Source: Spirochaetaceae bacterium (GTDB lineage Bacteria > Spirochaetota > Spirochaetia > SZUA-6 > Bin103). From it: a stretch of 33,560 nucleotides of DNA. The notes under the pieces were generated by a model. The model saw nothing but the letters and a program-made list of their open reading frames with translations. It made no database searches and was not told where the DNA came from. This document shows positions 9,438 to 27,392 of this stretch, piece after piece; the stretch's first letter is position 1, and each line of letters starts with the position of its first letter. The DNA lies in assembly GCA_028821475.1 (NCBI GenBank), contig JAPPGB010000070.1, positions 1 to 33,560 on the forward strand, in the 5' to 3' direction. Position numbers and translations under genes: made by a program.

Positions 9438-11258
9438 TCAGAAGCCCATTTTCGCCTTCAGGTCCTGGTCGATCCAGACCCGCACCAGAATCTCGTTGTT
9501 GCTCATATCCGTGAGGAACGTCTCGCCGTTCCAGCCCTTGACCCAGGGGTTGGCCAGCTGGAACGCCGGCGCCTTGTGGCCGTAGACCTGGAAGTGCTGG
9601 CGCATGATGTAATCGTCGAACTCTCGCATGATCGGGATCCGCGCTTCTTGGCTGGTCGCAGCCTGGAACGCCTCGTAGAGCCGACTCATGGTCGCGTCCT
9701 TGAGCCCGCCGGTGTATTCACCCGCCTGGTTCGCCTGCCCTTCGCCCTGGTAGTTGTGGACGTAGCCGTAGTAGCTCATGATGTGCGCGGGACTCAGATC
9801 CCAGCCGGAGTCGCCGGTCGTCATCTCGTAGAGCCCGCGGGCGCGGCGATCGACCCAGGCGCCGGTGTCCATCACCGTGATCTCCACCTCCACGCCGATC
9901 GCCTTCCAGTAGCCGGCCACGATCTCGACCCATCCGAGGTCGATCACGTCGCGGTGGTCGTAGGTGACCTTGAACCGCACCCCGTCCGCGCCGCGCGGGT
10001 AGCCGGCCTCGTCGAGCAAGCGCTCGGCCTCCTGCGGATGGTAGGAGTACTCAGCCTGCAGATCCGCGGACCGCTCCGCGAACGGAGTGTGCATCTCGCC
10101 GAGCGCGGCGCCGACCCAGCCCTGCACCGTCGGGTAGGCATACCCGCCGTAGTAGCTCTCGTTGATGGCATCGCGGTCGATCGCCATGTTCATCGCCTTG
10201 CGCACGCGGATGTCGTCGAACGGCGGCCGGCGGATGTTCAGGCCGGACACCTGCAGTGCGCGACTGTAGAACGGGACTGCCTGCATGTCGGGGTTGGTCT
10301 TCAGGATGGCATCCACCGCTTCGACGGTGGCCAGCGCGATGCCGCCGCCGACAGTAAGCATGTCTACCTGGCCGGTGCGCAGCGCGGCAGTGTAGGTCGC
10401 CTCTTCCTTCATATGGAGAGCCACCAGCTCATCGACGTAGGGCAGCCGGTTGTCCGGGTACTTCTCGTCGAAGCCCCAGTAGTCGGGATTGCGCACCCAC
10501 TGCTTGCGTACCTCGGGTTGGAAGTCAGCCAGCATGAACGGCCCGGTGCCGACCACGTTCCGCCAATCGGAGTAGTTGCCGTGCTGCTCGATGACCTCCG
10601 GTGGCAGGATCCAGACGCCGACCTCGGTGAGCACCTGGTTCTGCAAGTCCAGACGCGGCTCGGTCAGCTTGAACTCGACCGTGTACCGGTCGGTGGCCTC
10701 GATGGATTCCCACGGAAAGTTGCGCAGGGCGTAGGTATACTCCGGCTTCCAGTCGAGGAGGCCACCGATGCGGCGGTAGGTCCAGGCGACGTCTTCGGCG
10801 GTCAGCTCGCGTCCGTTCATCGGCGGCTTGTCGTGCCAGTGAACGCCCTGCCGGACCTTGACGATGAGCGTCTGCAGGTCGGGATTCGACCAGCTCTCTG
10901 CCAGCCACCCGGTGAGGTGCTGGGGCGGCGTGTACCAAAAGGTCAAGGGGTACTCGTCCCGCGGCGTGGCCCAGTTGACGTATGCCAGCTTCTCGTTCAC
11001 CCCCATGATCTGAAAGCCGGCCCAGTGTCCGCCGATCGACGGATCCTGGTCCAGGAGCTCGTTCTTGGATGCGATGGTGAGGGTGCCGCCGTACTCGGGT
11101 GCGGTCACCATCTTGCCGGTGGACGGGTCCATCACCATCTCCTTCTCCATCGCCGCGGCCGGCTCCTCTTCCCCGGCCGGGCTCGCCGAGACGCCAGTGG
11201 CGACCAGGGCGAGGACCAACGCAACCGCGAAGGTCTTTGTAGTCATTACAATGTTCAT
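9438..11258 (-). CDS. ABC transporter family-5 solute-binding protein, operon 2
   Basis: 606-residue exported binding protein. The ATG at 11258 has GGAG six bases upstream and begins MNIVMTTKTFAVALVLALVA, a Sec-type signal peptide; the likely cleavage region is 'GVSASPAGEEE'. After an acidic/Ala linker and 'MDPSTGKMVTAPEYGGTLTI' comes the SBP_bac_5 domain with 'PEVIEQHGNYSDWRNVVGTG', 'NPDYWGFDEKYPDNRLPYVD' and 'LLDEAGYPRGADG'. The frame is open a further 45 codons upstream to 11393, but that stretch would put the hydrophobic segment internally and lies in the conserved leader. First gene of operon 2; substrate unknown. It is visibly richer in GC than its paralogue at 15555. Confidence 0.95.
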   Translation of the reverse strand: MNIVMTTKTFAVALVLALVATGVSASPAGEEEPAAAMEKEMVMDPSTGKMVTAPEYGGTLTIASKNELLDQDPSIGGHWAGFQIMGVNEKLAYVNWATPRDEYPLTFWYTPPQHLTGWLAESWSNPDLQTLIVKVRQGVHWHDKPPMNGRELTAEDVAWTYRRIGGLLDWKPEYTYALRNFPWESIEATDRYTVEFKLTEPRLDLQNQVLTEVGVWILPPEVIEQHGNYSDWRNVVGTGPFMLADFQPEVRKQWVRNPDYWGFDEKYPDNRLPYVDELVALHMKEEATYTAALRTGQVDMLTVGGGIALATVEAVDAILKTNPDMQAVPFYSRALQVSGLNIRRPPFDDIRVRKAMNMAIDRDAINESYYGGYAYPTVQGWVGAALGEMHTPFAERSADLQAEYSYHPQEAERLLDEAGYPRGADGVRFKVTYDHRDVIDLGWVEIVAGYWKAIGVEVEITVMDTGAWVDRRARGLYEMTTGDSGWDLSPAHIMSYYGYVHNYQGEGQANQAGEYTGGLKDATMSRLYEAFQAATSQEARIPIMREFDDYIMRQHFQVYGHKAPAFQLANPWVKGWNGETFLTDMSNNEILVRVWIDQDLKAKMGF

Positions 11259-11460
11259 ACGTAACTCCGTATGTTGGGTTTTGAGAGTATTTTGTAGCGA
11301 ATCGCCACTCCCTAAGCACTCTCGCACCCGCAACGCGGGCGGCTGCGCAGCGACGGCAATCTCGGATCGTCCAGCGCGCGGCACGTCACTCATGGGCTCA
11401 TGGGCTCAGGCCGCGCGCGTTGCGTGGTTGCTCGAGTACCAGCGTGCACCTCCTTTCTGC
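11259..11460 (-). promoter_or_regulatory. Conserved structured leader RNA of binding-protein gene, operon 2
   Basis: About 200 bases aligning with the leader at 17382-17580. From 5' to 3' on the minus strand there is a strong Shine-Dalgarno (AAAGGAGGTG, 11456-11447), then stem I (11410-11418 with 11374-11382, 9 bp of GC). Stem II is CCCGC-AAC-GCGGG on the plus strand at 11327-11339. Stem III lies at 11294-11311, and GGAG then leads into the ATG. Stem II differs from its counterpart by a paired C-G to T-A change. No known riboswitch core is recognised. Confidence 0.6.
11398..11442 (-). CDS. Putative leader peptide, operon 2
   Basis: 14-codon frame LVLEQPRNARGLSP starting at CTG (11442), six bases after AGGAGG, which lies in a sequence almost perfectly complementary to the 16S rRNA 3' end. 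It aligns with MILKEPYARAA in front of operon 3. Its 3' half lies across the 5' arm of stem I, so translation could prevent that stem from forming. The CTG start is unusual; a GTG overlapping the Shine-Dalgarno is the other option but is too close to it. Confidence 0.35.
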   Translation of the reverse strand: MVLEQPRNARGLSP

Positions 11461-15554: not shown

Positions 15555-17381
15555 CTAAAAACCCATCGATGCCTTCAACTCCTGGTCGACCCAGAGGCGG
15601 GGGACGATGGCATTTGTCTTGTTGGATCCCAGCCAAAATTCATTGTTGAGACCTTTAACCCACGGTTGGTGCACGCCGATTAATGGAATCTGCGGGCCCG
15701 AGACGAACCAAACCTGCTCTTTTATGTGCTCAATCAGCTCTCTTACCTGCAGCAAAAACTCCTCTTCCGTGGTTGCATTTCCGGCGGCTTCCAAAATGGC
15801 GTCATAGGCCGGATCGGCGCAATTGCAGCGGTTGGCAGAAGCACCAGTCCCGAGCTGACTCAGAAAACCCAGGGGATTACCATACTTCGCCGCCATTGTC
15901 ATACCACCAAACATGTCCCACTGTGCAGCGTTAATGTAACTTGCCCACTCCGCACCTGGCACTGGCTCAACCTCTACCTCAACGCCAATGTCGCGAAAGT
16001 AGGTAACGGCTACTAATTGTGCATAGTCCAGATCGCCGCCTTCCCAATGTCCCATTGTGAGCTTGAACCTGATGCCGTCGGCGCCGCGCGGATACCCCGC
16101 CTCATCAAGGAGCCTCTCGGCCTCTGCCGGGTCGTAGTCATAGATCTTCTTGAGCTCTTCGGGCCACTCTTCGAATGCGGTGCCAACCACTGGCATATCG
16201 TTGGCCAGCAATGAGTGAGGTGTCCAGCTTCCCCACCCTTTGAAGTAGGTATTGTGAAGTGTCTCACGGTCCAGTGCCATCTGCATTGCCTTGCGTACCT
16301 GGATGTCATCAAATGGCGCCTTCTGCGTGTTCATGCCGATACCATAGTCCGATCGATTAGGATGCTCGGTTATCACGATGTCAGGGTTGGTCCGTTGCAG
16401 CCTCTCCATGTCGTCCTTGTTTTTGAGCGCGTACGTGAGACTGCCCTGGATATCGACCTTGGCGGTGCGCAGCGCGGCAATTTTTGTTGCCGGCTCCGTC
16501 ATGAACACGAACCTCATCTCGTCAACATAGGGCAGGCGGTTGTCCGGGAATTTTTCGTCGAAGCTCCAGTAGTTGGGGTGCTTGGTATAGGTTATTGAGC
16601 TGCCCTCGATATACTCAGCCATCTCAAAGGGTCCGGTGCCGACCGCGTTCCGCCAATCCTTCATGTCACCGTATGTATCGATTACCTCCCTTGGAATCAT
16701 GTAAAACACGGTCGTGTCGATGCTATCCCTCAGCGCCATGGGGTCTGGCTGTTTCAGCTTCATGACAACCGTCCATTCGTCCGTCGCCGTCACCGATTCG
16801 ACCTGTCTAGCCTTCCAAGTACCAATGTGGGGGGAAGGTTCGGTTTCACTGAACTCAGTCCCTGTCAGTTTACTTCCCAACATGCGTTGAAAGCTGTATT
16901 CTACGTCCTTGGCAGTCATCTCCCGGCCGTTCACCGGTGCCTTGTCGTGGAAGTGAACGCCCTGGCGGATCTTGAAGGTATAAGTGAGGTTATCCGAGGA
17001 AATCTCCCAGCTTTCCGCCAGCGCCCCGCGCATGGCACTCATGGGAAAGACCGGGGGGCCCGACCAGTCATATACGTCTCTATCTATTGCCCAGTCGCCA
17101 ATGGCCAGCTTCTCCAAAACCTGGGTGAGATACTGAAGGGCCTGAGGGGCCGAAAAATACGGGTCCATAGTCGTAGGAGCCCAATCATGACTGAGAACGG
17201 TTATTGTCCCGCCATATTGTGGCGCATCCACCATTTCGCCGGTGGTCGGGTCGAGCACCATTTCCTTCTCGGCCGCCGCTGCCGGTGCCTCTTCTTCGCC
17301 AGCGGCCCACAGACCGGTCGCGGTCAGGATGAGGACCAACGCAACCGCGAAGGTCCTCATCACGCTTACGATACCATTCAT
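15555..17381 (-). CDS. ABC transporter family-5 solute-binding protein, operon 3
   Basis: 608-residue exported binding protein. ATG at 17381 has GGAG six bases upstream and gives MNGIVSVMRTFAVALVLILT, a signal peptide ending near 'GLWAAGEEE', then an Ala/Glu linker and 'LDPTTGEMVDAPQYGGTITV'. Domain motifs include 'PREVIDTYGDMKDWRNAVGT', 'HPNYWSFDEKFPDNRLPYVD', 'VRKAMQMALDRETLHNTYFK' and 'LLDEAGYPRGADG'. An ATG at 17393 lies within the Shine-Dalgarno region and is less likely. The same open upstream extension as in operon 2 exists (to 17519). More AT-rich than the operon 2 copy. Substrate unknown. Confidence 0.95.
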   Translation of the reverse strand: MNGIVSVMRTFAVALVLILTATGLWAAGEEEAPAAAAEKEMVLDPTTGEMVDAPQYGGTITVLSHDWAPTTMDPYFSAPQALQYLTQVLEKLAIGDWAIDRDVYDWSGPPVFPMSAMRGALAESWEISSDNLTYTFKIRQGVHFHDKAPVNGREMTAKDVEYSFQRMLGSKLTGTEFSETEPSPHIGTWKARQVESVTATDEWTVVMKLKQPDPMALRDSIDTTVFYMIPREVIDTYGDMKDWRNAVGTGPFEMAEYIEGSSITYTKHPNYWSFDEKFPDNRLPYVDEMRFVFMTEPATKIAALRTAKVDIQGSLTYALKNKDDMERLQRTNPDIVITEHPNRSDYGIGMNTQKAPFDDIQVRKAMQMALDRETLHNTYFKGWGSWTPHSLLANDMPVVGTAFEEWPEELKKIYDYDPAEAERLLDEAGYPRGADGIRFKLTMGHWEGGDLDYAQLVAVTYFRDIGVEVEVEPVPGAEWASYINAAQWDMFGGMTMAAKYGNPLGFLSQLGTGASANRCNCADPAYDAILEAAGNATTEEEFLLQVRELIEHIKEQVWFVSGPQIPLIGVHQPWVKGLNNEFWLGSNKTNAIVPRLWVDQELKASMGF

Positions 17382-17580
17382 GGTTTTCTCCATAGATCGT
17401 TGTTTCGAGCGTATTGCGGAGCGACTTTCCGCTCCCTGGCTACTCTCACGCCTGCAACGCAGGCTGCCAGTCCGAGCCAAGTTGCCAGAAGCGCGCGGCG
17501 TGTGACTCACCGGGTTCACCCGGGCTCACGCCGCGCGCGCGTACGGCTCTTTGAGTATCATTTGCACCCCCTCTCCTGAG
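17382..17580 (-). promoter_or_regulatory. Conserved structured leader RNA of binding-protein gene, operon 3
   Basis: Homologous to 11259-11460. In order on the minus strand: AGGAGAGGGGG ribosome-binding site, leader ORF, then stem I (17527-17538 with 17491-17502, 12 bp) with an inner CCGGG-TGAA-CCCGG hairpin. Stem II is GCCTGC-AAC-GCAGGC (plus strand, 17450-17464). Stem III is GGAGCG with CGCTCC (17418-17435), ending at GGAG and the ATG. All three stems keep position and loop size relative to operon 2. Confidence 0.65.
17526..17561 (-). CDS. Putative leader peptide MILKEPYARAA, operon 3
   Basis: 11-residue frame with ATG at 17561 and a purine-rich ribosome-binding site (AGGAGAGGGGG) about five bases upstream. 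The codons for its last five residues form the 5' arm of stem I and the TGA lies at the end of that arm. The operon 2 counterpart aligns over 'LxLEQP/ILKEP' and the following Arg/Ala codons. No run of one regulatory amino acid is seen, so classical amino-acid attenuation is not obvious. Confidence 0.45.
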   Translation of the reverse strand: MILKEPYARAA

Positions 17581-17909: not shown

Positions 17910-18014
17910 TCAAGTCAGCGCCCGCTCGGTGGTGGCGTAGATCTGCTGGAGTGTGTGCCGACGATCGTCAAGAACCGCCAGCAGGTCACGGATCTGCTGG
18001 TTCGTCGCGCTCAT
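17910..18014 (-). CDS. Very short ORF overlapping the nucleotidyltransferase gene, possible truncated partner
   Basis: 34-residue frame MSATNQQIRDLLAVLDDRRH, TLQQIYATTERALT, predicted as one long amphipathic helix. The ATG lies 29 bases inside the end of the nucleotidyltransferase gene, the place where MNT antitoxin operons carry the HEPN toxin gene. It ends far too early for a HEPN domain and lacks the R-X4-6-H motif. It is either a leftover N-terminus of the partner or a genuine micro-ORF. Confidence 0.35.
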   Translation of the reverse strand: MSATNQQIRDLLAVLDDRRHTLQQIYATTERALT

Positions 18015-18384
18015 ACACCAACTTGCCTCGCTCTCGTATCCGCTCGGCCGTGGTGGGCGGGAGCTTCTCCAACTCGACCACGTCGACTGGCAACGTGGAC
18101 CCCTCCATGGCCAGGCCGAGAGCGGCAAAGAAATGCTCAGCGCCGGCCAGCCCTTCGAGCGCGATGTCGATATCAGAGATCTCGGTGAACCTGTCCCGAT
18201 TCAGCAGAGATCCCCACTGATAGATCCGGCGTGGCTTCACCACCCGCGCGATCTCGGCGACGATGGCTTGCGCGTCGAGCGTTGCGCGCTCGAAGCGCTC
18301 ATCGATCTGGGCACGGCGCCCCTCGGCCTTGCCGCGCAAGAACGCCCTGACCCGGTCCAGATCAATGTCGAAGTCCACGGCCAC
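17986..18384 (-). CDS. MNT-type (minimal) nucleotidyltransferase, probable antitoxin half
   Basis: 132-residue protein with the polymerase-beta-like motif 'GSLLNRDRFTEISDIDIALE' (G-S-X11-D-X-D) and a later acidic position in 'STLPVDVVELEKLP'. Family members act as antitoxins to HEPN RNases by adding nucleotides to the toxin. The GTG at 18384 ('VAVDFDIDLDRVRAFLRGKA') is chosen because the upstream open sequence is unconserved. Its expected HEPN partner is reduced to the short ORF at 17910, so the gene may be an orphan. Confidence 0.7.
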   Translation of the reverse strand: MAVDFDIDLDRVRAFLRGKAEGRRAQIDERFERATLDAQAIVAEIARVVKPRRIYQWGSLLNRDRFTEISDIDIALEGLAGAEHFFAALGLAMEGSTLPVDVVELEKLPPTTAERIRERGKLVYERDEPADP

Positions 18385-18497
18385 CCGTGCACTGTAGCAC
18401 GTAGCTGAGGCAGGTGGCGCCACCAACGCCGTCGTGCGTCAACAGCAGTCGCAGGTGGTCCCACCAGGCGGAACGATCGCGCCGCGGCGCGCTGCGG

Positions 18498-20396
18498 CTA
18501 GCGCAGGTGCTCTTCGGCGTAGAGGGAGAGTTCGATCATGCGCTCCAGCAGCTCGCCGCGCTCGTAGCCGGGGAAGTTCTCCAGCACCAGCTCCTTGGCG
18601 TACAGGCGCAGCATGTAGCGCAGCTCGCGCGCCCGCTTCTCGGACGCGTAGCGGAAGTCGCTGTGGCCGTTGTTGACCACGATCAGGTTGTTCTGCGCGT
18701 CGTAGCGCGAGCGCCACAGCTCGCCCGGTGCGTGGCGGAACGTGTAGCGCGGGATGCCGCGCCCGTTGTTCTGCTGCGGGCTGTCGAAGCGGTCGCCGAG
18801 CGACTCGGTGATGGTGACGCTGGCGTCCGCGCGGCATTCGCTGTCCTGCTGGCGGGCGGTTACGCGGATCACCGACAGCCCCGGCTCGGCCGGCGCGGCG
18901 AAGGTCACCACCTCGCGGTCGCGGTCGCGCAGGCTGCCGGCGCCCTCGACCACCTGCCAGCTCACCTCCACCCCAGCCTCGATCGCGCGCCCGCGGCGAT
19001 CCTTGGGCAGGCAACGGATGGTGCAGGTCTCCCCCACCTTCACCACCGCCGAGGCGGGCGACACCGTCACCTTGTACAGCGGCCCCGCGTGCTCGTGGAA
19101 CGCGCGCTCATCGGAAGCGGCCGCTTCGGCGTCGGGAGCGGTGGCATCGGGCTCCGGCACCAGGGAGCCCTCGGCGTCGGTGAGGTCGACGAGCGGCGTA
19201 TCGCCGGGGCCGTCGCCGGGCGCCGAGGTGGCGGTGCCGGCGGCGCCGGCGGCCGTGGTGCGGCGCGGTTCGTTCACCTCCAGCCACTGGTAATCGGCGT
19301 TGGGCAGCGCCAGCAGGCCCTCGGTCAGCGCCTTGCGCACCGAGCGCAGAATGCTGCGGCTGGCCTCCTCCTCGGCCGCGGCCCGCTCGCGCTCCACCTG
19401 CTCGATGACGTGCGGCTCGATCTCCTCCAGCGCCCGGCTCAGGGCCGCGAAGCGCGCGTCGAACACCACCCCGTCGCGGGTGCCGGGGGTAAGCTGCAGG
19501 AACGGCGCGTCGATCAGCCCGCGCAGCAGGTCGGAGGTCCACGGCTCGCGTTCCAGTCCCTGCAGCCGGCTGACGTCCGGCACCACCCTGGTGCCGTTGC
19601 GAAACAGCGCCACCCGGTGCTCGGCCTGCGCCTCCCCGACGTACAACTCGACCTCCACCGAACCGTCCGGCGTGCCCACCGGTCCGATCTCACGCAGCAG
19701 CCTCCCGGTGAACTCCCGCGGCACCACCTCCAGGTCCTTGCGCGCCCGGCGGTCCTTGATGCGAATGCGCACCCCCGAGGAGCGGATCCGTTCGCGCAGC
19801 TCGCTGGCCAGGAACGCCTGGATCCGTTCCGGGTTGAGTTGCCGGATGCCGGGCAGCAGCGGCTTGACCAGCAGTTCGGTGCCGGGCTGCTCGAACAGCA
19901 GCCGCCGCTTGGTGACCCGGTAGTGCGGCTCTTCCCTCACCATCTCCATGTCGTGCACCCGGCTGTCTGAGCCGGCCGAGGACAGCACCATCCGTTCGCC
20001 GACCGTCCAGAAGCTCAACAGGCCGATGCCGAACTCGCCCTGGATCCCCTCGGCGCCGCGCTCCTTGAGCCGGCGCTTGATCGAGTCGCACACGTGGGTG
20101 GCCACGTAGTCGAAGTCGGGCACGCCGTCGTCGTTCAGGCGGATGCCCTCGCCGTCGTCCACCACCCGCAGGTAGGGCTCGCCCTGCTCCCGGCCACGGA
20201 TAATGGTGATGTTCCTGGCGCGCGCGTCGATCGAGTTCTCGACGAACTCCGCAATCGCCTTCAGCGGACTGTTCTGCGACAGCGCGATGATGGTAATCGC
20301 ATTCCACTGGTTGCCGATCCGCAACCGGCCGCGCCCGTCCCGCGAGCCGCGCCGCGTTCGTCCGCCCGTCTTCTTCCGCTGTCCGCGTGCCGCCAT
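18498..20396 (-). CDS. GHKL-type ATPase with C-terminal Ig-like domain
   Basis: 632-residue protein. Residues 38-130 form a GHKL (Hsp90/MutL/MORC-like) ATP site: N-box 'KAIAEFVENSIDARA' (E53/N54), G1 box 'DDGEG' (80-84) and G2 'GEFGIG' (120-125). A transducer-like region reaches about 370 with a Glu/Arg-rich helix (323-360). A Thr/Ala/Pro/Asp linker (380-430) leads to an Ig-like beta-sandwich (441-532: 'YKVTVSPASAVVKVGETCTI'). A conserved-looking tail ends 'LSLYAEEHLR'. There is no signal peptide or membrane segment, so the Ig-like domain is cytoplasmic. The ATG at 20396 follows Lys/Arg-rich-coding sequence closely and is the best start. Function unknown; DNA repair, chaperone or defence roles are all possible. 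Confidence 0.75.
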   Translation of the reverse strand: MAARGQRKKTGGRTRRGSRDGRGRLRIGNQWNAITIIALSQNSPLKAIAEFVENSIDARARNITIIRGREQGEPYLRVVDDGEGIRLNDDGVPDFDYVATHVCDSIKRRLKERGAEGIQGEFGIGLLSFWTVGERMVLSSAGSDSRVHDMEMVREEPHYRVTKRRLLFEQPGTELLVKPLLPGIRQLNPERIQAFLASELRERIRSSGVRIRIKDRRARKDLEVVPREFTGRLLREIGPVGTPDGSVEVELYVGEAQAEHRVALFRNGTRVVPDVSRLQGLEREPWTSDLLRGLIDAPFLQLTPGTRDGVVFDARFAALSRALEEIEPHVIEQVERERAAAEEEASRSILRSVRKALTEGLLALPNADYQWLEVNEPRRTTAAGAAGTATSAPGDGPGDTPLVDLTDAEGSLVPEPDATAPDAEAAASDERAFHEHAGPLYKVTVSPASAVVKVGETCTIRCLPKDRRGRAIEAGVEVSWQVVEGAGSLRDRDREVVTFAAPAEPGLSVIRVTARQQDSECRADASVTITESLGDRFDSPQQNNGRGIPRYTFRHAPGELWRSRYDAQNNLIVVNNGHSDFRYASEKRARELRYMLRLYAKELVLENFPGYERGELLERMIELSLYAEEHLR

Positions 20397-20697
20397 AGCC
20401 TCAGGCGATAGTACGCCACCTGGTCCAGCGCAATCCACATCAGGTCAAAGCTGGTCACAGCTTGGTCACAGCTCAACCGGCCGCGGCCCCGAGCGTGGCC
20501 GGTCGAAGTCGGCATCGTCTCCCACGTCAGGCAACGCCAGGAGATGATCGATGAAGTTCGCCGCCGCCCGATCCAACGACACTGCGACGACGCTCACGCC
20601 CTCTTTCGGGCAGTCCAAGGCATTGCGATCGCCGCCGCCGGGTCGCCTTGCTCGCCGATCACGATCCGGGGGATGCCGCACGTCGCCGGCCGGTGGT
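20397..20697. other. Intergenic region with a possible small-protein remnant
   Basis: The minus strand from about 20590 to 20466 reads 'VSLDRAAANFIDHLLALPDV' and 'GDDADFDRPRSGPRPVEL' before a stop. It resembles the acidic C-terminal tail of VapB/FitA-like antitoxins, but no N-terminal DNA-binding part or start is convincing. The rest shows nothing recognisable. Confidence 0.25.
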
Positions 20698-22296
20698 TCA
20701 GTAGGGGATGGGGAGCTCGCCGACGGGGACCTCGATCAGGGTGGGGACGGGGCTGGCGACGGCGCGCTTGAGGGCCGCCTCCAGTTGCTCCGGGCCGAAC
20801 GCGCGCATGCCGCGTACGCCGTACGCCTCGGCCAGCTTCATGAAGTCGGGGTTGTACAGCTCCGAGCCGTACACCCGGCCATCGAACCGGCGGCGCTGGT
20901 CGCGGCGCACGTTGCCGTAGGCGTGGTCGTTGAACACCACCGCCACGGCGTTGATGCCGTAGCGCACCGCGGTGGCCAGCTCCTGGCTGTTGTACAGGAA
21001 GCCGCCGTCGCCCGAGATCAGCACCACCGCGCGGTGCGGCTGCCCGACCTTGGCCCCGAGCGCCGTGGGATAGCCGTAGCCGAGGGTGCCGAAGTAGGAC
21101 GGGGTGATGTAGGAACGCGGCGCGTAGATCGGACAGTGGGCGCGGCTGTAGTAGCCGAGCTGGGTGAAGTCCTGCACGATGATGCCGTCGTCGGGGGTGG
21201 CGGAGCGGATCGCCCGCATGAACGACTTCAGCGGTTCCGGCTCCTCGGAGCCGTCGAAGCGCTGCGCGTAGAGCGCCTCCAGTTCCGCCTGCCGGCTCGG
21301 GAGCGGCGCCATGCGCTCCTGCAACTGCCGGTGCAGCGCCTCCAGAGTGGCGCGCGCGTCGCCCACCATGCCGGCGGTGTTGGCGTAGTTGCGCCCGACC
21401 TCCGCCGCGTCGATGTCGATCTGTACCACCTGCTGCCCGCCGAGCAGGGCCGGCATCGCCATCCGCGTACCCACCGCCAGGATCACGTCATGCTCGGCGC
21501 GCCGCTCCCGGTAGCTGTCCCGCCCGAAGCTGATCGGCCCCAGGGAAAGATGGTGGCGGTCCGAGATCGCACCGCGCCCCTCGCCGGTGGCGAACACCGG
21601 CGCCTGCAGGTGCTCGGCCACCTTCAGCAGCGCCTCGTGGGCGTCGGACGCATGGACGCCGCCGCCCGCCCAGATCGCCGGGTTGGACGCCGCGGCGAGC
21701 AATTCCGCACCGCGCGCGACCTCCGCGTCGCCGGCGGCCGTACGCTTGCACTCCGCCGGGTCGAGCAACTCGACCTCCGCTTTTTCCGATAGCGCTTCGG
21801 GCGGAATCTCGATCTCCACCGGGCGCGGGCGGCCCGACCGTAACTGCACGAACGCCTCGTGGACGCCCTGCGCGGCGTCGGCGGCGTGCAGGATGCGCTT
21901 GCCCCACTTGATCACCGGGCGCACGGTGTCGAGCTGATCGTTGATCTCGTGCAGCACGCCGCGGTCCACGCCGATCAGGGCACGCTCCACCTGGCCGGCG
22001 ATCACCAGCATCGGCGACGACGCCGAGTAGGCGGTGCCGATGCCCGCCGAGGCGTTCTGCAGCCCGGGGCCCGGCACCACCAACGCCGTGCCGATGCCGG
22101 CGCCGGTGCGCGAGTAACCGTCGGCCATGTAAGTGGTGGCCTGCTCGTGCCGGGTGGTGATAAAGCGGATATCCTCCTGCTCGGCGAGCCCGTCGAGCAG
22201 GTGGTAGAGCTGCACGCCGGGCAGGCCGAAGATCACCCGCACCCCCTCGCGGTGAAGCTGTCGGGCGAGCGCCTGGCCGCCGGTCATCCTGGGCAT
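20698..22296 (-). CDS. Thiamine-diphosphate-dependent enzyme, acetolactate synthase-like
   Basis: 532-residue member of the large-subunit acetolactate synthase/benzoylformate decarboxylase group. The catalytic Glu lies in 'FITTRHEQATTYMADGYSR' (E51). The central domain spans about 190-320. The C-terminal ThDP-binding motif starts at residue 429 (GDGG...) and ends at the 'VVFND' Asn-Asp. No FAD-specific features or partner small subunit are present, and no ilvC neighbours it, so branched-chain amino-acid synthesis is unlikely. A decarboxylase or lyase of another 2-oxoacid is more likely. ATG at 22296 follows GAGGA by ten bases; ATG at 22287 is an alternative. Transcribed away from the gcv operon. 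Confidence 0.85.
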   Translation of the reverse strand: MPRMTGGQALARQLHREGVRVIFGLPGVQLYHLLDGLAEQEDIRFITTRHEQATTYMADGYSRTGAGIGTALVVPGPGLQNASAGIGTAYSASSPMLVIAGQVERALIGVDRGVLHEINDQLDTVRPVIKWGKRILHAADAAQGVHEAFVQLRSGRPRPVEIEIPPEALSEKAEVELLDPAECKRTAAGDAEVARGAELLAAASNPAIWAGGGVHASDAHEALLKVAEHLQAPVFATGEGRGAISDRHHLSLGPISFGRDSYRERRAEHDVILAVGTRMAMPALLGGQQVVQIDIDAAEVGRNYANTAGMVGDARATLEALHRQLQERMAPLPSRQAELEALYAQRFDGSEEPEPLKSFMRAIRSATPDDGIIVQDFTQLGYYSRAHCPIYAPRSYITPSYFGTLGYGYPTALGAKVGQPHRAVVLISGDGGFLYNSQELATAVRYGINAVAVVFNDHAYGNVRRDQRRRFDGRVYGSELYNPDFMKLAEAYGVRGMRAFGPEQLEAALKRAVASPVPTLIEVPVGELPIPY

Positions 22297-24297: not shown

Positions 24298-25641
24298 GTG
24301 CGCTACACCCCCCACACCGAGGCGGAGATCGCCGCCATGCTGGACGCCATCGGCGTCTACTCGATCGATGAGCTGTTCGCCGACGTCCCGCGCGAGCACC
24401 GCTTCCCGCGCCTCGACCTGCCGGACGGGCTCAGCGAGCAGGAGGTTGCGGCACTGTTCCGCGACCTGGCGGCGCGCAACGGGTCCATGGACGCTCACAG
24501 TTGCTTCCTCGGCGCCGGCGCCTACCACCACTACACCCCGGCGCTGATCCCGCACCTGTTGTTCCGCAGCGAGTTCTACACCGCCTACACCCCCTACCAG
24601 CCGGAGGTGAGCCAGGGCACGCTGCAGACCATCTTCGAGTTCCAGACCATGATTGCCCGGCTGTTCGGCATGGAGGTGGCCAACGCGTCGATGTACGACG
24701 GCTCCACGGCGCTCGCCGAGGCGGCCCTGATGGCGGCGCGGCTGCGCCGCGGGCGCGGCACCATCGCCGTGAGCGAGGCGGTCCACCCGGAGTACCGCGA
24801 GGTGCTGGCCACCTACCTGTCGGGTATCGGCCTGCGCATCGTCACCATCCCGTTCGACCGAACCACCGGGCGCACCGAGCCGGAGGCGGTTGCCGCGGCC
24901 ATCGACTCCGAGACCGCCGCCGTACTGGTGCAATACCCCAATTTCCTCGGTGCGATCGAGCCGGTCGCGGAACTCAGCGAGGCGGCCCACGCCGGCGGCG
25001 CGCTGTCGGTGGTGTCCGCCGACCCGGTCGCTCAGGCGATGCTGCGCCCGCCGGGGGAACTGGGCGCCGACATCGCCACCGCCGAGGGGCAGCCGCTCGG
25101 CCTGCCGCTGTTCTACGGCGGCCCCTACGTCGGCCTGCTCGCCACCTCGATGCGCAACGTCCGGCAGATGCCCGGCCGCCTGGCCGGGCTGGCCCAGGAC
25201 GCTGACGGCCGGCGCGGGTTCGTGCTCACCCTGAAACCGCGCGAGCAGGACATTCGCCGCGAGAAGGCGACTAGCAACATCTGTACCAACGAGGCGCTGA
25301 TCGCCACCGCGGTGACCATCTACCTGGCGGCGCTCGGGCCGGCGGGACTGCGCGAGGTGGCCGACCAATGCTACCACCGCAGTCATCACCTGGCCGCCCG
25401 GCTCGCCGAGCTTCCCGGCATCGACCGCCCGTTTACCGCGCCCTTCTTCCGCGAGTTCGTGGTGCGCCCGCCGCTGCCTCCGGCGCAACTGAACCGCCGG
25501 CTGTGGGAACGGGAGGGCATCATCGGCGGCCTCGACCTGGGCCGCTTCGACCTGGGCCTGGAGGGCTGCTGGCTGCTGACCGCCACCGAGATGAATTCCC
25601 GCGCCGCCATCGACCGGCTGGTAGAGGCGGTCGCTTCATGA
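24298..25641 (+). CDS. gcvPA: Glycine dehydrogenase (decarboxylating) subunit 1
   Basis: 447 residues, typical. It is the N-terminal half of the split P protein, forming a heterodimer with GcvPB. Hallmarks are '[20 protein letters not shown]' (after HSC), '[20 protein letters not shown]', '[20 protein letters not shown]', '[14 protein letters not shown]' and '[20 protein letters not shown]'. GTG start 12 bases after the gcvH stop, with no clear Shine-Dalgarno, implying translational coupling. The stop overlaps the next ATG (ATGA). Confidence 0.95.
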
Positions 25642-27392
25642 GCGCCGCGCAACTCCGCCGCGCGGACGGAGGAGACGCCGGAGCGGGGCTGCCGGGCAAC
25701 GAGGTTGCGCCACCGCCTGGCGCAACGCCCGGCAGCGCACGGTCGGCGGATGCCTCCAGCGGCGCCGAAGCCGGCGCGCCGCCCGCGGCCGGGACACCTT
25801 CGCCACGCGCATCGCCGGACTACGCGCGGTCGTCAGAGACCGGCCGCGGAGCGGGAGCCGGAACGCGGGACGCCGCCCGGACGCCATTCCCAGGCACGGC
25901 ACCGTCGACCGTGGCCGCGCCGGTCGACACCGGGCTGCTGCCCGCGCCGCCGCTGCTGTTCGAGCAGTCGGTGCCGGGGCGCAACGGCGTCCAGCTCGCA
26001 CCGCTCGACGTACCGCGCAGCGCGCTGCTGCCGGACGAGCTGCTGCGCACCGGGCTGCCCCTGCCGGAACTGTCGGAGCCGGAGGTGGTGCGCCACTTCA
26101 CCAACACTTCGCGGCGCAATTTCTCGGTCGACCAGGGCTTCTACCCGCTCGGCTCGTGCACCATGAAGTACAACCCGAAGATCAACGACCGGGTCGCCGA
26201 CCTGCCGGGGCTGGCCGCCATCCACCCCTACCAGGACGAGGCAACGGTGCAGGGCGCACTGCGCCTGCTCTGGGAACTGCAGGAGTGGCTCGGCGAGATC
26301 GCCGGGTTGCCCGCCGTATCCCTGCAGCCCTCGGCCGGGGCGCACGGCGAGCTGACCGGCGCGCTGATCATCCGCGCCTACCACGAGGCGGCGGGCCGGC
26401 AACGCACCACGATGCTGGTGCCCGATTCGGCGCACGGCACCAACCCCGCCACCGCCGCCATGGCCGGCTACCGGGCGCGCACCGTGCCAACCGGCAAGGA
26501 CGGCAGCCTCGACTTCGCAGCGCTGCAGGACGCGCTCGGCGACGATGTCGCCGGCCTGATGATCACCAATCCCAACACGCTCGGCCTGTTCGTGGAGGGC
26601 ATCACCGACATCGCCGCGGCGGTGCACGAGGCCGGCGGGCTGGTGTACATGGACGGCGCCAACATGAACGCCATGGTCGGCGTCGCGCGCCCCGGCGACC
26701 TGGGCACCGACATTCTGCACTTCAACCTGCACAAGACCTTCAGCGTGCCGCACGGCGGCGGCGGTCCCGGCGCCGGGGCCACCGCGGTCACCGCCGAGCT
26801 GGCCCCGTTTCTGCCGCCGCCGGTGGTATGCCGCGACGGCGACCGCTACCGCCACGACTACCGGCGCCCGCGCTCGATCGGCCGGGTGCGTGCCTTCTAC
26901 GGCAACTTCAACAACGCGGTGCGCGGTTACGCATACCTGCGCTCACTCGGCGGCGACGGCCTCGCCGAGATGAGCCGGCTGGCCGTGTTGAATGCCAATT
27001 ACCTGCGCGCCGCTCTCGCCGGCGACCTGGAGCTGCCGTACCCGCGCATCTGCAAGCACGAGGCGGTGTTCAGCGCCCGCCGCGTGGCGAAGGATCATGG
27101 CGTCCGTACGCTCGACATCGCCAAGCGGCTCATCGACTACGGCATTCACCCGCCCACCATCTACTTCCCGCTCATCGTTCCGGAGGCGCTGATGGTGGAA
27201 CCGACCGAGACCGAGTCCAAGCACACCCTCGATCACTTCATCGCCGCGCTGCGCGCCATTCTCGCCGAGGCCGCCGCCACGCCCGAACTGGTCCGCGCCG
27301 CACCGCACTCCACGCCCATCGGACGCCTCGACGAAGCGACGGCGGCGCGCCGGCCGGTGCTGACCTGGCCGCTGCCGGGCGACCGGCCGTAG
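25638..27392 (+). CDS. gcvPB: Glycine dehydrogenase (decarboxylating) subunit 2, with N-terminal extension
   Basis: Catalytic, PLP-binding half of the split P protein. The conserved part begins near residue 105 ('[20 protein letters not shown]') and includes '[19 protein letters not shown]', '[19 protein letters not shown]', '[17 protein letters not shown]', '[12 protein letters not shown]', 'DGANMNA' and '[20 protein letters not shown]' with the PLP lysine at K366. The total is 584 residues against about 480-500 usual. The excess is an N-terminal stretch of about 100 residues made mostly of Ala, Gly, Pro, Ser and Thr, presumably disordered. The ATG overlaps the gcvPA stop. No lpd gene follows, so the L protein is encoded elsewhere. 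Confidence 0.95.

Follow-up and report, generated by a model that had tools for sequence, protein, structure and literature searches.

GHKL ATPases power very different machines, including gyrase, MutL, Hsp90, MORC and some immune proteins, and in eukaryotes the GHKL protein SMCHD1 also carries Ig-like domains. MORC proteins have been defined by the S5 motif GhXhhpXXRhl, and paraMORC families 1-5 combine GHKL and S5 domains with a C-terminal extension of their own, mostly in restriction-modification operons (Iyer and co-workers, PMC2292703). As far as the available part of that account goes, paraMORCs are regarded as acting on DNA, and some members of paraMORC3 stand alone; paraMORC3 contains a nuclease of the RE fold, paraMORC4 a TIR domain and paraMORC5 an HxH motif. 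In the available part of another study, VcSduA was described as a defense system made up of one GHKL protein that includes an effector domain (PMC12137116). The accessible portion of PMC8011034 contains no mention of Ig-like domains or spirochaetes, and in such parts of the literature as were accessible, no publication was found that deals with an Ig-like domain in a GHKL protein of bacteria.

Here, we analyzed a stretch of 33,560 nucleotides (the window) from the 5.73-Mb draft genome (183 contigs) of a Spirochaetaceae bacterium, in which a single-copy GHKL gene was confirmed exactly at 18498-20396 on the minus strand. It encodes 632 residues, from an ATG at 20396 to a TAG stop, and a GTG located upstream in the same frame would extend the protein to 646 residues. 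All 28 full-length homologs compared could be aligned over their whole length and share one architecture, in which the GHKL ATPase is followed by a middle domain that may be S5-like, a helix, a linker of variable length, the probable Ig-like domain and finally a tail of about 90 residues. In these 28 sequences, the commonest residue had a mean frequency of 0.74 in the ATPase, 0.68 in the middle domain, 0.15 in the linker, 0.54 in the Ig-like region and 0.73 in the tail. We conclude that this GHKL family is real, conserved and uncharacterized, and that its C-terminal half is unusual.

This layout resembles that of the paraMORCs, at least as described in the available part of PMC2292703: a GHKL domain and a second domain, predicted to be S5-like in the paraMORCs and possibly so here, are followed by a family-specific C-terminal domain, the MORC-specific motif is lacking, and the gene stands alone as in some paraMORC3. 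Unlike paraMORC families 1-5, no restriction-modification linkage was found at the homolog loci and no nuclease motif was seen; the tail has NxxHxD rather than the HxH of paraMORC5, and a probable Ig-like domain is added. VcSduA is also a single gene that has an N-terminal GHKL domain, a clamp-like middle domain and a C-terminal domain of its own, whereas it ends in a DUF4263 nuclease of the PD-(D/E)xK type (according to the accessible text of PMC12137116), for which neither the motif nor a Pfam match was present here.

The protein begins with a basic and unconserved extension (residues 1-22, 20331-20396, minus strand as for all features of the gene; pI 12.0). It lacks a signal peptide, as already stated in a preliminary description of this DNA, and no N-terminal hydrophobic segment was found in the 28 homologs, the highest 19-residue Kyte-Doolittle mean being 1.32 in the first 60 residues and 1.72 anywhere in these proteins. 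The GHKL (Bergerat) ATPase domain follows (residues 23-186, 19839-20330), with 54 of 164 positions invariant in the 28 homologs. The Pfam family HATPase_c_3 matched residues 45-147 with 39.8 bits (cut-off 25) and was detected in 21 of 21 homologs. In the alignment of these 21 rows, the motifs EFVEN (E50/N54), D80xG82xG84, QGEFGIG (119-125) and G172-T173 were all invariant; the count of 13/28 for D80, G82 and G84 in the 28-row alignment reflects gap placement. The Pfam match over its cut-off and these invariant motifs place the protein in the GHKL superfamily, with N-box, G1, G2 and G3 all present, in agreement with the full motif set that had been read from the single sequence.

To identify the closest relatives of the ATPase half, the conserved N-terminal part (residues 23-375) was compared by hhalign with four proteins of the same genome. 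The P-values were 8e-7 for a MORC-like (MzaB-like) protein, L067, 1.8e-6 for HtpG over 121 columns (the longest alignment), 8.4e-5 for GyrB and 1.3e-4 for MutL. MutL, HtpG and GyrB were each identified by an NCBIfam model of their own family above its cut-off, and L067 matched MzaB at 8.8e-21, yet far below the cut-off of that model. L067 (103-1974, minus strand, of contig C112) is a second MORC/MzaB-like GHKL protein of 624 residues in this genome. These comparisons place the ATPase half nearest to MORC-like and Hsp90 proteins, so the MORC/Hsp90 kinship proposed in the preliminary description stands. On the other hand, similarity to each of these proteins is limited. The MORC S5 motif was absent from all 28 homologs (0/28), and L067 has no match to the tail (P 0.53). 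The HSP90-family model PRK14083 matched 21 of 21 members, but only in the ATP domain, and the Hsp90 middle and C-terminal domains were unmatched both in profile scans of the members and in the HtpG alignment. Similarly, the mutl model matched the N-terminal ATP motif in 21 of 21 members, and the full-length MutL model gave 34.7 bits, below its cut-off of 180. Two phage protein families (phrog_6203 and phrog_24466 of PHROGs) also matched the ATP domain only.

The conserved middle domain (residues 187-330, 19407-19838) has 31 of 144 positions invariant in the 28 homologs and may be S5/transducer-like, judging from its position; no significant Pfam family was found for it. It contains R307, invariant in 28 of 28 homologs within a TPxTRxG motif, which may correspond to the basic residue needed for catalysis in Hsp90 and S5 domains. 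Behind it, conservation and a low-confidence model (helix at residues 314-362) point to a long helix with LPxxxYxW at its end (residues 331-375, 19272-19406), followed by an acidic and unconserved linker (residues 376-428, 19113-19271) whose length varies from 29 to 80 residues among homologs. Structures were predicted by AlphaFold2 for four sequences (the window protein and L002-L004), both as the whole protein and as residues 429-632, and the models were of low confidence (mean pLDDT 36.3 and 45.1, respectively). For this reason, the structural searches with these models were set aside as meaningless: Foldseek gave nothing under E 0.27, and VIA-align gave no Z >= 5 and listed, at Z 2-3, some antibody and receptor chains of the Ig fold amid unrelated folds.

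An Ig-like sandwich had previously been proposed at residues 441-532. Here, residues 437-530 (18807-19088) appear to be a probable Ig-like (Big-type) domain, a conclusion drawn from sequence profiles. By hhalign, this region matched seven aligned Big_2 domains taken from related genomes with a P-value of 0.0016 (21 rows) or 0.00063 (30 rows), compared with 0.74 when the tail was used as a control. The first rows of the PDB sequence search (E 0.05-0.6, below significance) included a teneurin-like protein, Big2 domains of LigB (E 0.44, with the 21-row profile only) and an Ig-like bacterial receptor. Pfam detected Big_1 in two of 30 members (best E 0.04, below significance) and aBig_2, Pom152 Ig-like and K319L PKD in one member each; these Ig-like or PKD-type families were among ten weak families in all, the remainder being unrelated and none significant on its own. 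Both AlphaFold2 models had beta strands at roughly the right places, but with a mean pLDDT of only 36 and 45. Thus, the earlier proposal is weakly favored by repeated Ig-like matches, all below significance, and a confident fold was not obtained. The combination of an intracellular GHKL ATPase with Ig-like folds (probable here) recalls SMCHD1 in design; SMCHD1 is far larger and has an SMC hinge at its end.

The C-terminal domain (residues 545-632, 18501-18764) is basic and contains a WRS motif and NxxHxD, followed by two helices predicted in both low-confidence AlphaFold2 models. It is as conserved as the ATPase: 20 of 88 positions were invariant in the 28 homologs, and NxxHxD was present in every one of them. 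Neither Pfam nor other homology searches matched the tail to a known family, and no PD-(D/E)xK nuclease motif was seen in it. When its profile was searched against 392 Spirochaetota genomes, 13 genomes (including its own) had matches at E <= 0.01. Nine of these were strong (E up to 3.4e-42) and located in open frames as long as the full protein (595-648 residues), and four were weak (E 0.002-0.009). Occurrence of the tail in other proteins received no support from the two weak matches that were examined (L063 and L066), which fall in or beside unrelated ORFs. In these genomes, strong matches were restricted to full-length members. The tail, previously noted as specific-looking, is real, and its conservation makes it stand out more strongly than had been claimed.

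The family was detected in 25 of 98 genomes (the own genome and 97 relatives), in 18 of them over full length; the others were cut by contig ends or were fragments, some with stops. The gene is absent from the two further genomes of this set that share the genus of the window. One organism (G007) has, besides an intact copy, a second and decayed copy with in-frame stops on contig C151 (L029/L032). No matches were observed in 72,556 plasmid records, in 50,697 phage records or, with three queries, in viral contigs. A search of all phyla used patterns from one sequence only and missed most of the spirochaete members as well. The family is uncharacterized and patchily present in Spirochaetota. MutL was also present in 24 of 25 carrier genomes (the exception being 87% complete), which rules out a MutL substitute; since the own genome also has HtpG and GyrB in addition to MutL, the GHKL protein is no replacement for any of these.

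In the protein tree of the 25 genomes, we counted three changes of order, class or phylum labels, compared with a mean of 11.4 for shuffled labels. When all classes were considered, sequence identity within the family was poorly correlated with that of RecA (Spearman 0.10; 370 of 2000 permutations as high) and MutL (0.14; 196 of 2000), whereas RecA and MutL were well correlated with each other (0.77; 0 of 2000). Wide horizontal spread, which might be read from these values, was dropped because within the class the family tracked RecA (0.29; 11 of 2000) and MutL (0.50; 0 of 2000) to a degree similar to that between RecA and MutL themselves (0.42; 10 of 2000), and only five rows from other classes broke the vertical pattern. 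The gene is therefore mostly inherited vertically within Spirochaetia, with frequent losses. A single clade of the five other-class members was rejected (AU p 1.2e-25), and thus some transfers between classes, or old paralogs, are likely; one member (G133) may sit inside the order of the genome analyzed here (AU p 0.095).

The closest pair (G008/G018) shared 572 of 612 residues, with dN 0.031 and dS 0.279 (dN/dS about 0.11 over 612 codons); for the tail, dN was 0.005 and dS 0.256 (about 0.02). Purifying selection on the family is strong, and strongest in the tail. Mobility of the single gene was ruled out for this pair, because the same AAA_14 gene lies 3' in both genomes and in the same convergent orientation, adjoining the family gene in G018 and about 7 kb away from it in G008. 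Comparison of a carrier locus (L049 of G067) with the corresponding locus of a genome of the same genus without a copy (L145 of G047) revealed conserved flanks, between which the latter holds about 16.7 kb of ORFs that looked metabolic by eye, and hence not a clean empty site. The 12-kb surroundings of the gene in G030 had no match at all in two genomes of its genus.

With regard to genomic context, the gene had been described as standing beside defense-like modules and its homologs had been suggested for examination in defense islands; neither idea was borne out. No conserved neighbor was found in 24 loci, whether defense genes, the SFII helicases and methylases linked to prokaryotic MORCs, or housekeeping repair genes. 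Apart from the homolog and its shadow ORFs, no cluster extended beyond six loci, and the six-locus cluster consists, by eye, of ABC-type ATPases located kilobases away from the gene. Other neighbors recognized by eye were genes for arginine biosynthesis, dnaX-recR, hydrogenase-type and molybdenum-cofactor genes; toxin-antitoxin genes were seen at some of the loci. Within the window, the gene has oligopeptide transporters on its flanks, together with a TPP enzyme and glycine cleavage P-protein. Oligopeptide-binding proteins of the SBP_bac_5 type occur three times (6-1700, 9438-11393 and 15555-17519), as separate ORFs lying with permeases in one 17-kb stretch, and two overlapping ORFs on the plus strand (24298-25641 and 25368-27392) correspond to halves of the P-protein (GDC-P and GcvP2_C).

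PADLOC was applied to nine ORFs of the window; the GHKL protein itself was unmatched, and the only ORF with (weak) matches is the P-protein according to Pfam. A small ORF on the minus strand 71 bases downstream of the GHKL gene (17986-18426) has by eye a GS...DID pattern, a motif by which we liken it to a minimal nucleotidyltransferase antitoxin; it may be what was taken for a defense-like module, and a PDB search with it gave nothing. It is followed by a short ORF (17910-18128), possibly a truncated partner, and the end of an open stretch upstream of the gene (20466-20735, minus strand) resembles by eye an antitoxin C-terminus, perhaps a remnant. For the homologs, we scanned 135 of 207 neighboring ORFs (the nearest ones, within 2.7 kb, in 32 loci, five loci with gene fragments only being left out) and 127 of 209 control ORFs. 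PADLOC families numbered 26 in the former and 17 in the latter, which is not clearly different; the control stretches were hand-picked on longer contigs and are therefore no matched random sample, and in this GC-rich DNA some ORFs of both sets are surely spurious. The one visible difference was PDC-S01 (AAA_14/DUF4143), found in 6 of 135 neighbor ORFs and 0 of 127 control ORFs; such ATPases lie beside the homolog in at least three of 32 loci (L035 3378-4625, L037 244-1437 and L039 3554-4762). This excess is too little to call a defense island.

Considering the ATPase signature, the fixed architecture, purifying selection, the lack of conserved neighbors and the patchy distribution that were observed, the best reading is an accessory function rather than a housekeeping one, and not that of a subunit of a linked operon. 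As to its nature, we see about an even chance that the protein is a clamp of the MORC/paraMORC-Hsp90 kind that is driven by ATP, stands alone in the cytoplasm and probably forms a dimer; since homology was found for neither the middle domain nor the tail, it is only the ATPase half that argues for a clamp. The dimer, the clamp cycle and the binding of a target are what we infer beyond these observations. By analogy with the superfamily, ATP binding to the GHKL domain would close the dimer, and the middle domain would sense the gamma-phosphate through R307. The probable Ig-like domain, borne on the helix and the flexible acidic linker, may then serve for spacing or docking, and the conserved basic NxxHxD domain might bind or act on a target, which could be DNA, RNA or a protein complex. 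Defense is one of several possible uses of such a clamp.

Other explanations have to be weighed against this clamp. It appears rather unlikely that the protein is a MutL- or paraMORC-like accessory of the chromosome or of DNA repair acting on DNA superstructure: the matches to the mutl model in all 21 members are consistent with it, as are the paraMORCs, which are regarded as acting on DNA and of which some paraMORC3 stand alone (in the available part of PMC2292703), whereas the tail has no nuclease motif, repair genes are not linked and MutL is present besides.

One previous suggestion was a defense role, and a single-gene anti-phage system would be one in which phage DNA or protein is detected by the GHKL half, or gates it, and effector function resides in the tail, on the model of VcSduA. 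We consider this improbable. The unmatched protein in PADLOC, the similar numbers of PADLOC families in neighbors and controls and the absence of a conserved defense neighbor in 24 loci all argue against it, as do the largely vertical inheritance within the class, a tail without PD-(D/E)xK and the absence from plasmids, phages and viral contigs. Patchy presence, the transfers suggested by the scattered other-class members, broken copies such as that on G007:C151, the toxin-antitoxin-like ORFs seen by eye and the PDC-S01 neighbors point the other way, and defense by one GHKL gene with an effector has a precedent in the accessible text of PMC12137116. A specialized Hsp90-like chaperone, whose probable Ig-like domain and tail would dock a particular client with no role in DNA, is equally improbable, as the long HtpG alignment and the PRK14083 matches that favor it are limited to the ATP domain and the MORC-like protein scores as well as HtpG.

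A more far-reaching version of the ATP-driven clamp can also be considered, although its chance is small. The protein might be a single-protein ATP-gated clamp of a new type, whose cytoplasmic Ig-like domain would form the link between a MORC/Hsp90-type ATPase and a new NxxHxD effector or nucleic-acid-binding domain; it could then be a bacterial counterpart, in design, of chromatin proteins with GHKL and Ig-like domains and take part in genome conflict or in control of the nucleoid.

New GHKL ATPases keep emerging in bacterial immunity and DNA handling. Considering that the architecture is fixed and strongly selected, that the tail is without kin and that MutL, HtpG and gyrase are already there, this family should do something else in the spirochaetes that carry it. 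Should the Ig-like domain be confirmed, it would represent an intracellular use of a fold that is mostly known from the cell surface.
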